The notes beneath the pieces are model-generated. The model was not told where the DNA came from and did not search any database. It was given only the letters and a program-made list of their open reading frames with translations. This document shows positions 4,325 through 50,392 of a stretch of 50,392 nucleotides of DNA, one piece after another (position 1 is the stretch's first letter; each line of letters opens with the position of its first letter). Source of the DNA: Bdellovibrionales bacterium (GTDB taxonomy: Bacteria > Bdellovibrionota > UBA1018); the NCBI GenBank assembly GCA_016786465.1, contig JAEUWC010000007.1:1-50392 (forward strand). Reading direction: 5' to 3'. A program made the translations under genes and the position numbers.

Positions 4325-5863
4325 TTAGACCTGCACCCATTGGGTCCATTGACCCGATTCCAAAACGCCATCCAACCATTGCATGTCGTCGTGCAGTGAA
4401 CGGTCCTTGTCCATGAACGGCGACTTTTCGCGAATCTTCGCGTGAATCGTTTCCACCATCGAAGACGATTTCAGCGGTCGAAGGAAATCCAAGCCCTGCG
4501 CCGCCGCCAAAAGTTCCATCACCAAAACGCGTCGGACATTCGTCACCACGCGCTGAGCCTTTCGCGCGGCCCAGGCGCCCATGCTGACGTGGTCTTCCTT
4601 GTCTGCAGACGTCGGGATCGAATCGACCGATGCCGGATGACAAAGTGTCTTGTTTTCAGAAACGATCGAAGCCGCGGCAACTTGAACAATCATGTATCCG
4701 CTATTCAACCCGCCTTCTTTGACCAAGAAGGCTGGAAGTTCCGAAATCGCGGGGTTGATCAACTTTTCAATTCTTTGTTCAGAAATACTTCCAATTTCCG
4801 CCATCGCGATTGAAAGCGCGTCCATGGCAATCGCCACGATCTGCCCGTGAAAATTTCCGCCGCTTAGAATTTTTCCTGCGGCTGGAAAAACCAAGGGGTT
4901 GTCCGTGACCGCATTGATTTCGCGATCCAAAACATCGCGAACGAACTTCAGCACGTCGCGGCTGGCGCCGTGAACTTGCGGAATACAGCGAACACTGTAA
5001 GGATCCTGGACTTTTCCACAACCTTCGTGACTTTCTGAAATCTGACTTTTCTTAGGCCGTCCGTCCGAAGACGAAAGCAAAATCGATTTCATCCTTGAAG
5101 CCACCAAAACCTGACCCGGATGGGGACGAACGGAATGGATTTCTTCTTCAAATGCTGTTTCGGTCCCGCGAAGCGCTTCAACGGTCATCGCGCCCGCCAC
5201 ATCTGCAACGTCGCAAAGGTGTTCAGATTCCAAAAGCGCAAGCGCCCCGATGGCTGTCATGAACTGCGTTCCATTGATCAGCGCCAATCCTTCTTTGGCT
5301 GCCAGGCGAATCGGTTCGATTCCCGCTTTCTTCAAAGCGTCAGCGCCGGTCATTTCCGCACCCTTCAAACGGGCACGGCCTTCACCAATCAGAACCAAAG
5401 CCAGGTGTGAAAGGGGGGCTAGATCGCCCGAAGCACCCACGGATCCTTGCTGCGGAATCAAAGGACAGATGCCTGCGTTCAAAACATCTAAAATTTTCTG
5501 AACCAGTTCGACCCGCACGCCCGAATGCCCTAGCGAAAGGGCCTGAGCCCGAAGCAGGAGCATCGCGCGCGACACCTTGTCCGGCATCGCAGGTCCAACG
5601 CCCACGGCATGCGAACGAAGCAGATTGTACTGAAGGGTTTCAATTTGATCGCCTGAAATTTTGACGTTCGACATCAGACCAAAGCCGGTGTTCACGCCGT
5701 ACAAAGTTTTTCCCGAAGAAACTTCGGATTCCAGAAATTGGCGCGACTTCAAAATCGCTGCCTTTGCCGCCGACGACAACGAAACCTGGACGCCACCCAG
5801 TGCGACTGCGCGAACATCTTCTAAGCTCAGTCGCTTTGCGCCACCGATTTCAAGCGTCTTCAT
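4325..5863 (-). CDS. hutH: histidine ammonia-lyase
   Basis: 512 residues, the usual length. Removes ammonia from L-histidine to give trans-urocanate, the entry step of the hut pathway. The self-forming MIO cofactor triad Ala-Ser-Gly is at residues 144-146 ([10 protein letters not shown]), and the Tyr loop LYGVNTGFG is at 54-62. Other family blocks include LINGTQ and DNPL. The start ATG overlaps the rpe stop by four bases (ATGA), so translation is coupled to a pentose-phosphate gene, an unusual arrangement for hutH. No HutC-type operator was recognised. Confidence 0.97.
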
Positions 5864-26436: not shown

Positions 26437-26457
26437 TGGCGATCCCAACAGGAGTCG
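26437..26457 (-). repeat. displaced 21-base copy of the tRNA-Arg 3' end
   Basis: Bases 26437-26457 are identical to 26605-26625, the 3' acceptor and T-arm part of tRNA-Arg including CCA. An intact tRNA followed by a displaced copy of its 3' end is the usual footprint of site-specific insertion into a tRNA gene, though only 147 bases lie between the copies. Confidence 0.8.
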
Positions 26458-26578
26458 CCTTCCGGTTCTCGCGGCTAGCGCGCTCGACCTGCAGGCCGGG
26501 CTCGGCGCTTTCCCGCAAGCGGGAACCCAAACGCCTCCGCCATTCGCCCCTGTTGGAAGGTACAAACGCTTCGCGTTT
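26437..26578 (-). ncRNA. structured tRNA-linked element, copy A
   Basis: On the minus strand, in order: hairpin AAACGC-GAA-GCGTTT (26578-26564), GTACC link, CCTTCC (26560-26555), CCAACAGG (26556-26549), an 84-base GC-rich core (26541-26458) with hairpin CCCGCTTGCGGG (26523-26512), GGAAGG (26463-26458), then a tRNA 3' end whose CCTGTTGG pairs with CCAACAGG, ending in CCA at 26437. The last 21 bases equal the 3' end of the adjacent tRNA-Arg. Copy B at 49097-48949 has the same layout with different stem sequences. Whether it is transcribed is not known. Confidence 0.5.
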
Positions 26579-26604
26579 TTTCACTGCTGCGGTCGCCATG
26601 TATA

Positions 26605-26681
26605 TGGCGATCCCAACAGGAGTCGAACCTGTAACCCCCAGCTTAGAAGGCTGGTGCTCTATCCGGTTGAGCTATGGGATC
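26605..26681 (-). tRNA. tRNA-Arg(UCU)
   Basis: 77 bases including an encoded CCA. Acceptor GATCCCA pairs with TGGGATC, D-arm GCTC/GAGC, anticodon arm CCAGC-CTTCTAA-GCTGG with anticodon TCT after T33, T-arm ACAGG-TTCGACT-CCTGT, discriminator G. It decodes AGA. Its 3' end is copied 168 bases further on in the same strand, flanking a structured repeat. Confidence 0.95.
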
Positions 26682-48948: not shown

Positions 48949-49097
48949 TGGCGGAGAGGGATGTTCGACCTTCGGGTACTTGCGCTTCCCGCGCTCGTCC
49001 CTTCGGCAAGCCTCAGACGCCGCCCGCAAGCGGGCGCCCGGCGTCTTCCGGCCGTTCGAATCCCTCCCAAGGTACCGGACTCTGCACTGCAGAGTCC
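48949..49097 (-). ncRNA. structured tRNA-linked element, copy B
   Basis: On the minus strand: hairpin of 10-base arms (49097-49077), GTACC link, CCTTGGG (49072-49066), GAGGGAT (49066-49060) and a GC-rich core with hairpin CCCGCTTGCGGG (49034-49023). Then come CCCGAAGG (48976-48969), TCGAAC, ATCCCTC (48962-48956) pairing with GAGGGAT, and the tRNA-like end TCCGCCA at 48949. The element layout matches copy A; the pairing segments differ but remain complementary. Bases 49119-49098 upstream look like a degenerate tRNA 5' part (GGCAGAGTATCC). Confidence 0.5.
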
Positions 49098-49115
49098 TGA
49101 CCATCGGATACTCTG

Positions 49116-49305
49116 CCATTTCCTCTCAGTCAGACAGGTTTGTCGCTTCCACCCATTTCTAAAGAACTTTTTCCGAGCCCGAACTCTCGCAAGCGTGAAG
49201 CGTTCGCGAAGCGATGCGAGAGAGGACAGGAGTCCGCCGAGGGATCGACAAAAGTTCTTTAGAAATGGGTGGAAGTTCCTAGTCTGGGTGACTGAAAGGA
49301 AATGG
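49116..49305. repeat. long inverted repeat in non-coding accessory DNA
   Basis: Perfect 26-base arms at 49146-49171 and 49250-49275 (left arm begins CTTCCACCCATTTC). An outer 15-base pair at 49116-49130 and 49291-49305 (CCATTTCCTCTCAGT against its complement) has one mismatch. The interior holds a smaller GC-rich hairpin (CTCTCGC at 49184-49190 with GCGAGAG at 49216-49222). The structure lies between element copy B and the recombinase gene. The whole stretch 48917-49350 has no credible gene. Confidence 0.8.
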
Positions 49306-49311
49306 CGGATT
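49300..49311. repeat. 12-base direct repeat, near the recombinase gene
   Basis: AAATGGCGGATT, the same as 47491-47502. It overlaps the right outer arm of the long inverted repeat, 40 bases from the recombinase stop, and is a candidate attachment-site trace. Confidence 0.35.
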
Positions 49312-49330
49312 CGGCGATTAAACCGAATTC

Positions 49331-49350: not shown

Positions 49351-50392
49351 TCAAAACCGTGTGTCTGAAACGTGCCGAAGTCCCGTGACATTGGGTGAGC
49401 CTTCATCGGGACTTTCTTCAAAGAACCTGAGTCTATCTGTGATCCCTTGAATCTCGATTCCCGCTAACCTCACATAGTGCTGCATCGTCTTTAGCTCCTT
49501 CCAACCACAGATCTTCATGACCTTGGCAGCTTCAACCCCCTGCCTGAGCATCTGTGTCGCAAAACACGCCCGCAGGGTATGAAACTTAATGGAAGGAAGC
49601 CCATTCATGGTGCAAAAGGTTCTCAGGATTTTAGCCTGAAGCCCTTTATCCCATTGAGTGTCCCTATTAAAAACTTGGAGTCCCGTTCCAGTCAGTTTCC
49701 TTTGCTCAAGCAAGAGCTGCTTTAGCTCAGGACTGATTGGGACTTTTCTCCAGGTTCCAGCCTTGGTCGATTTAAACGACCTAAGTCTGCAATTGTAGGA
49801 ACGATGCACATTGATCGTCATGTTCTCAAAATCGACATCCTGCCAAGCTAGAGCGTAAAGCTCGCCTGATCGCATGCCGGTAAGAAGAGCAATGTGCCAA
49901 ATTCGTTTCCAAGGATGATCCTGCTCATTCGCTTTTTGAATGAGTGCCTGGATCTCTTGGAAAGTGAGAATTTCTGGCTGCTTCTCTTCGCCTCTTTTGA
50001 GAATGACTTCAAAAGTTGGACTTCGGTGGATGTGCGTAAGTAGACGTGAGTGAATCCCAAAATCAAAAACGCTTTTGAATATCTGTTTTAACTTCTTTCG
50101 ATATCCAAGACACAAACCAGCCTCTTTCATCTTTTCAAAGATGCTCACTAGGACAAATGGGTTTAGGTCCATGGAAGGTTTCTGAAGGTACTCCTTCGTC
50201 CACTTCCTCAGTGCTCCCAAATAGTCTTCGTGATTGATTAACTGGCGTTGTCCTGTTGCGACTTTGAGTCTTCGCTCGGTCTTATCCCATTCGTTTAGAA
50301 GATCGTCCCAGAGTATTCCGCGAGATTCGATCTCTTTGACCTGGTCTTCGCAAATTCGTCTGAGTTTCTTTTCAACTTCATGGGCTTCTTGC
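49351..50392 (-). CDS. tyrosine recombinase (phage-type integrase), N-terminus beyond window
   Basis: The frame is open through 50392, so the start lies outside; 347 codons are visible. The N-terminal part is helical and basic (LRRICEDQVKEIE, WDKTERRLKVATGQRQL), a SAM-like arm domain follows, then the catalytic domain: Arg in LLTGMRSGELYALAW, the beta-turn Lys in STKAGTWRKVPIS, HTLRACFATQML (His-x-x-Arg), and the nucleophile Tyr in TMQHYVRL. The usual His before Tyr is Trp (ICGWKELK), as in some integrases. Its position at the edge of foreign-looking DNA suggests it moves this segment. Confidence 0.9.
   Translation of the reverse strand, partial: QEAHEVEKKLRRICEDQVKEIESRGILWDDLLNEWDKTERRLKVATGQRQLINHEDYLGALRKWTKEYLQKPSMDLNPFVLVSIFEKMKEAGLCLGYRKKLKQIFKSVFDFGIHSRLLTHIHRSPTFEVILKRGEEKQPEILTFQEIQALIQKANEQDHPWKRIWHIALLTGMRSGELYALAWQDVDFENMTINVHRSYNCRLRSFKSTKAGTWRKVPISPELKQLLLEQRKLTGTGLQVFNRDTQWDKGLQAKILRTFCTMNGLPSIKFHTLRACFATQMLRQGVEAAKVMKICGWKELKTMQHYVRLAGIEIQGITDRLRFFEESPDEGSPNVTGLRHVSDTRF

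Follow-up and report, generated by a model that had tools for sequence, protein, structure and literature searches.

A probable rtT-like mobile RNA element behind tRNA genes of Bdellovibrionota

rtT RNA and other elements at the 3' ends of tRNA genes

Since 1991, rtT RNA has been regarded as a puzzling by-product of a single tRNA operon in E. coli. In the E. coli tyrTV repeat, the tRNA-Tyr tail is followed by a spacer, the antisense T strand GGGGAAGGATGAGAA, a core, and the tail copy AATCCTTCCCCCACCACCA, and the Rfam model RtT (RF00391; rttR, tyrT/tyrV) pairs the GGGGAAGGATGAGAA strand with the AATCCTTCCCCCACCACCA strand. Behind tRNA-Pro(cgg) in Salmonella, Klebsiella, and E. coli, rtT carries a Pro tail and the matching antisense strand. 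Insertion at the 3' end of tRNA or tmRNA genes, with displacement of a 3' copy, is also the usual outcome of integrase activity. RtT is summarised in PMC4986893, citing Bosl and Kersten 1991, as an RNA that is released from tRNA transcripts, processed, and stable in E. coli, and rtT-like RNA is reported from nearly all Pasteurellaceae (PMC4986893). In Salmonella, RtT is reported to form a variable tandem repeat of 175 bp (PMC2658671), and a tandem GA motif has been reported for RtT (PMC7657543).

The element described here shares several features with RtT, namely the position downstream of a tRNA gene, a structured GC-rich core, tandem copies, and a closing helix formed by a T-stem reverse complement and a copy of the tRNA 3' end including CCA. 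It also has the tandem-GA motif (in helix P5) and, in part of its copies, the (T)GAGAA motif. In both systems the tRNA-derived strands differ by locus, as with tRNA-Tyr and tRNA-Pro in RtT. However, the core sequence and helices differ, and the Bdellovibrionota element has an extra 5' hairpin, occurs with no fewer than 13 tRNA types as well as tmRNA, and shows a dispersed, patchy distribution. RF00391 (gathering threshold 45 bits) gave no match to copies B or C3 of the element even at E<=10 and nothing over the cut-off in 58 relatives, with a positive E. coli control. The covariance models R1, built from 7 strong copies in the window genome, and R2, built from 46 copies, gave no significant match in rtT. 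By its architecture, as read from sequence, the element appears to work like rtT, and by the Rfam model it is not a member of that family. In genome G007, which belongs to the same phylum as the element, tRNA-Ser is followed by a weak RtT-like copy that carries a Ser tail.

Tyrosine-integrase islands and prophages resemble the element in their insertion at the 3' end of tRNA or tmRNA genes and in the downstream displacement of the original 3' end. Unlike them, the element measures about 160 bp plus a palindrome, has a structured core and no integrase gene inside, contains an internal antisense copy of its site, and presents one core family at many tRNAs. tmRNA, YrlA Y RNA, and viral tRNA-like structures share with it a 3' end resembling a T arm and acceptor with CCA. 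In contrast to these, it has no Aragorn or Rfam match, its two-arm core replaces the T loop, and its CCA region can pair with TGGC.

Copies A and B and the structure of the core

The window is a stretch of 50,392 nucleotides from a Bdellovibrionales bacterium, in which the initial annotation had described two diverged copies, A and B, of a possible new structured RNA or repeat family. All parts listed there for copy B, in the order shared with copy A, were located by sequence inspection on the minus strand at 49118-48949. Copy B reaches further 5' than had been annotated, to TGGCAGAG (49118-49111) and then a 78-nt inverted repeat. Its features, and those of copy A, are as follows.

49351..50391, minus strand: tyrosine integrase gene at the contig end, directly upstream of B (PF00589, E 1.3e-23; phrog_1 integrase, E 3.4e-45)
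49103..49318, no strand assigned: palindromic block between the expected tRNA site and element B (repeat I1; arms 49103-49180 and 49241-49318)
49111..49118, minus strand: TGGCAGAG, near reverse complement of the acceptor end plus CCA (CTCCGCCA)
49077..49097, minus strand: 5' hairpin P2, GGACTCTGCAGTGCAGAGTCC
48949..49075, minus strand: conserved part of copy B, with GTACCTT, anti-T strand, three-way-junction core, and tRNA-tail copy (R1 match, 115.6 bits, E 3.5e-25, copy B being itself among the built-in members of R1)
49075-49069, minus strand: GTACCTT
49055..49068, minus strand: anti-T strand (stem strand) GGGAGGGATTCGAA, reverse complement of the tRNA-Ser(tga) T arm TTCGAATCCCTCCC
49015..49053, minus strand: arm 1, with P4, P5 (AGACGCC/GGCGTCT), and P6 (CCCGCTTGCGGG), from covariation and fold
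49034-49023, minus strand: CCCGCTTGCGGG, which is P6
48968..49007, minus strand: arm 2, with P7, P8, and P9 (GCC...CGAGCGCG...CCCGAAGGT), from covariation
48997-48990, minus strand: CGAGCGCG; the motif C(C)GAAGG is also present in copy B
48949..48967, minus strand: tail CGAACATCCCTCTCCGCCA, the copied tRNA-Ser 3' end with small differences from the tRNA
26605..26681, minus strand: tRNA-Arg(tct), the tRNA of copy A (Aragorn; direct repeat D1)
26437..26598, minus strand: copy A (R1 match 26437-26563, E 7.3e-30)
26549..26556, minus strand: anti-T strand of copy A, CCAACAGG

The 78-nt arms of the palindromic block are 78% complementary and enclose 60 nt, and similar palindromes occur in other copies. 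In B, C22, and C2, the palindromes from the tRNA site to the element (seen at 49103-49318 of the window, around 5270-5450 at L028, and upstream of the element at L027) hold a common GC-rich repeat, GGACTCCTGTCCTC...GCGAACGCTTCACGCTTGCGAGAG, possibly a separate REP/terminator family.

Copy A starts six bases past the CCA of tRNA-Arg(tct), and the last 21 nt of this tRNA recur at 26457-26437 as its 3' end (D1). A 285-aa ORF (26599-25742, minus strand) has its ATG within copy A, and as it runs on through the element, its first ~50 residues consist of element sequence. Its true start likely lies further downstream, and it has no Pfam family match. The genome holds seven strong copies (A, B, C3, C9, C22, C2, and C18), with C3 after tRNA-Arg(ccg), C9 after tRNA-His, and C22 after tRNA-Ser(gga). 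A weaker fragment, L075, follows tRNA-Glu and has a matching anti-T strand.

The core forms a three-way junction of arm 1 (P4-P5-P6), arm 2 (P7-P8-P9), and the closing helix. Across 55 distinct copies, 92.3% of cells in the core helices are paired and 19 of the 22 pairs have changed on both sides. The covariation score is 0.511; shuffles give 0.134 +/- 0.010 and slid controls no more than 0.07, a large margin even though the alignment was fitted to the model and is biased towards it. The larger alignment thus bears out the selected structure proposed in the annotation. Since the seven-copy model also finds full-length matches in other genera, the likeness of A and B is far from chance. P6 is longer in some copies, and in P5 two pairs are jointly replaced by tandem G.A/A.G in 16 copies. 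A strand test of G.U versus A.C gave 18 vs 11, an excess too weak to serve as a mark of the RNA strand, so the folded molecule may instead be single-stranded DNA. The pseudoknot suggested between CCTT and AAGG was rejected, as this pairing holds in 61.7% of cells compared with 58.7% after shuffling and slid versions score equally high.

These results bear on a reading of the element as a non-autonomous DNA element (MITE or satellite) of tyrosine integrases, in which the tails would be attL and attR, the hairpins would bind protein, and there would be no functional RNA. The strong two-arm covariation, the tandem G.A/A.G of P5, and internal loops resembling structured RNA argue against it; its further evidence concerns the insertion sites, discussed below.

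The tRNA-derived closing helix

The 3' strand of the closing helix is a copy of tRNA positions ~57-76, i.e., the last ~20 nt with T arm, acceptor, and CCA, and positions ~54-68 recur in the 5' strand as their reverse complement. An additional stretch, TGGC..., corresponds in reverse complement to the acceptor and CCA. Many kinds of tRNA gene, and tmRNA, have a copy directly behind them on the same strand: 41 of the 55 have a tRNA or tmRNA at most 250 nt upstream of GTACC. Besides tmRNA, 13 tRNA types are involved (Arg, His, Tyr, Gln, Ser, Gly, Met, Val, Phe, Leu, Lys, Trp, and Glu), and later R2 copies likewise stand behind tRNAs for Val (twice) and Leu (twice). The tail copies match their own tRNAs with a mean score of 13.97, compared with a maximum of 7.74 among 10,000 permutations, and the antisense strands reach 7.54 (permutation maximum 6.26). 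As in RtT, the element thus ends family-wide in a copy of the adjacent tRNA 3' end, with B's matching tRNA on another contig, and closes with a helix of an internal strand and this tail copy. The tRNA-derived strands change with the tRNA; the cores do not.

The outer stem had been noted as complementary yet different in sequence between A and B. The helix itself stands, but not its reading as point-by-point compensation: because tail copies and antisense strands fit their own tRNAs, the difference is mainly that between Arg and Ser tails with their reverse complements, not drift with compensation. The tail copy is truncated in C22, L032, L062, and L064 and therefore need not be functional. In some copies strong terminator-like palindromes separate tRNA and element, which would hinder their co-transcription. 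Tandem element units were observed at L059, L071, L160/L185, L189, and L190, each with tail copy, palindrome, hairpin, and core, like an rtT array.

Copy B has no tRNA beside it. Its anti-T strand matches the reverse complement of the T arm of tRNA-Ser(tga), on contig C20, at 14/14 positions, and that of the orphan C2 matches tRNA-Ser(cga), on contig C29, at 15/15. Both tRNA genes are on other contigs, with no element behind either. On account of the 14/14 match and the adjoining integrase gene, which probably belongs to a genomic island, B is probably the copy of tRNA-Ser(tga), cut off by such an island. For C2, an integrase gene lies 15 kb upstream on the same contig. The simplest reading would be that islands entered the tRNA-Ser(tga) and tRNA-Ser(cga) genes and pushed elements B and C2 away, with the break at B placed across contig ends whose joins fall within assembly gaps. 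B would first have stood behind tRNA-Ser(tga) and become separated once the island entered that tRNA. On C20 and C29 of the window genome, G000 (L196 and L198), similar foreign-looking DNA lies behind tRNA-Ser(tga) and tRNA-Ser(cga), probably two related islands.

Distribution and movement between tRNA genes

With R1, copies were detected beyond the window genome's own genus, family, and order, in 15 of the phylum's 369 genomes, and R2 raised this to about 60 copies in 21 of the 369. When 84,980 named genomes were scanned with a strict pattern, matches came only from Bdellovibrionota-type MAGs, labelled Oligoflexia, Bdellovibrio sp., Bacteriovoracaceae, or 'Deltaproteobacteria', with two loci titled just 'bacterium'. 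Copy B had no match in phages and the strict pattern none in viral contigs (IMG/VR), and a phage origin was rejected. Among the matches listed, plasmid matches of copy A cover the tRNA part of the query alone (3-88 of 261). No Rfam family, including YrlA-type Y RNA, matches the element at gathering or permissive thresholds, and Aragorn and Rfam recognise it as neither tRNA nor tmRNA. A literature search, with a coverage mostly outside subscription journals, found no earlier account of such elements. The family may thus be called new, although not wholly unprecedented, its architecture being that of the E. coli rtT repeat. We judge it to be a real structured-RNA element without earlier description, which is rtT-like in its architecture and moves between tRNA genes.

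For 21 of 47 copies the nearest-neighbour core lies within the same genome, where permutations gave at most 14, and in 0 of 18 it belongs to the same isoacceptor. It follows that cores move from one tRNA to another, with a change of the tRNA-derived strands. At two sites, the original tRNA 3' end is displaced downstream, as in integrase-type insertion. In G094, an element-free tRNA-Arg(tcg) ends in GGGCGCACCATTTGTCAA; in genome G060, GGGCGCACCATTTGTCAA stands after the element and tRNA-Arg(tcg) now ends in GGGCGCGAATAAAC, a new 3' end. A similar displacement was found at tRNA-Val(cac) when G060 was compared with element-free relatives, so that at both sites the element stands between a tRNA with a new 3' end and the displaced original end.

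The comparison at tRNA-Arg(tcg) contradicts the view of the element as a fixed regulatory 3' structure of tRNA operons, inherited vertically, with core similarity due to gene conversion instead of movement. Enteric rtT, which seems stable at tyrT and one tRNA-Pro locus and is reported in similar form from nearly all Pasteurellaceae (PMC4986893), would suit such a view. In Bdellovibrionota, however, the distribution is patchy (21/369 genomes), the occupied tRNAs differ between genomes, the nearest cores are never of the same isoacceptor, and relatives have empty sites, which together make a fixed structure improbable.

The origin of the tail copies was also considered in terms of a retroelement, whose RNA, primed by or fused to a mature tRNA, would be reverse-transcribed, the tRNA tail and its complement being copied into new copies. 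The antisense strand does resemble a primer-binding site (TGG plus the reverse complement of acceptor and T arm), and the tail copies of L037, L050, L053, and L068 have a CCA that is absent from the adjacent tRNA gene. Yet in relatives that lack the element, the corresponding tRNA-Arg and tRNA-Val genes do encode CCA, and since the original 3' end is displaced, the extra CCA is not evidence for reverse transcription. RVT_1 is absent from the carriers G060 (100% complete, 5 copies), G040, G068, G088, and others, and reverse transcriptase shows no association with the element, being present in 7 of 14 carriers versus 37 of 83 other genomes. Copying of the tail from mature tRNA was accordingly set aside as unlikely, and the retroelement as a whole carries little credence. 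In L033, L034, L061, and L192 the repeat runs several bases past CCA, for which target duplication is another fitting account. As a side observation, only about a third of the tRNA genes of G060 encode CCA.

The insertion pattern with a displaced 3' copy, being the usual integrase outcome, and the integrase gene adjoining B speak for the non-autonomous DNA element of tyrosine integrases set out above. Against it, one core is combined with many att sequences, and integrases account for 4 of 139 flanking proteins. With the structural evidence, this reading is unlikely, though better placed than the two preceding ones. The element has no ORF, and neither an integrase encoded in it nor a known cognate integrase was found. 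The 139 flanking proteins include no shared gene family, so that a flanking gene was rejected as mobility partner. A Y1/RAYT transposase (REP/RAYT, IS200-like) was likewise rejected, as there was no association with the element and PF01797 is absent from the carriers G012, G040, and G068. Movement by a trans-acting recombinase is what we infer.

Taken as a whole, B is probably one copy of a mobile, non-coding RNA element resembling rtT, and this is the best explanation of the evidence. The element would insert in the T loop or 3' end of tRNA genes, where integrase-like, trans-acting recombination would keep the tRNA intact. Renewal of the antisense strand with each new tRNA might be driven by selection that preserves the closing helix, or else by templated correction of one inverted repeat by the other. 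By analogy with reports on rtT RNA, the transcript may be matured at its 3' end by the tRNA machinery. That a distant phylum has the rtT layout dispersed behind no fewer than 13 tRNA types and tmRNA, with different tRNA-derived strands in each case, suggests a general kind of mobile RNA linked to tRNAs. More tentatively, and with somewhat more doubt than confidence, there could be one mobile RNA class including E. coli rtT, in which each jump rewrites one sense and one antisense segment of the element from the entered tRNA gene, and which could thereby settle behind almost any tRNA or tmRNA gene and leave it intact. The Bdellovibrionota family offers direct tests of rtT function, of the origin of the tRNA copies, and of how a single small element can exploit almost all tRNA genes as sites.

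A second kind of insert (CTTCAGATACG...GTACGCCTTGG...) was observed behind tRNA genes of G060 at L078 (near C5:184956), L087 (near C2:135230), and L097 (near C15:127159), ending in a tRNA-tail copy at L078 and L087. At L038, L191, and L192, sequence like this second kind lies in the spacer ahead of the element.
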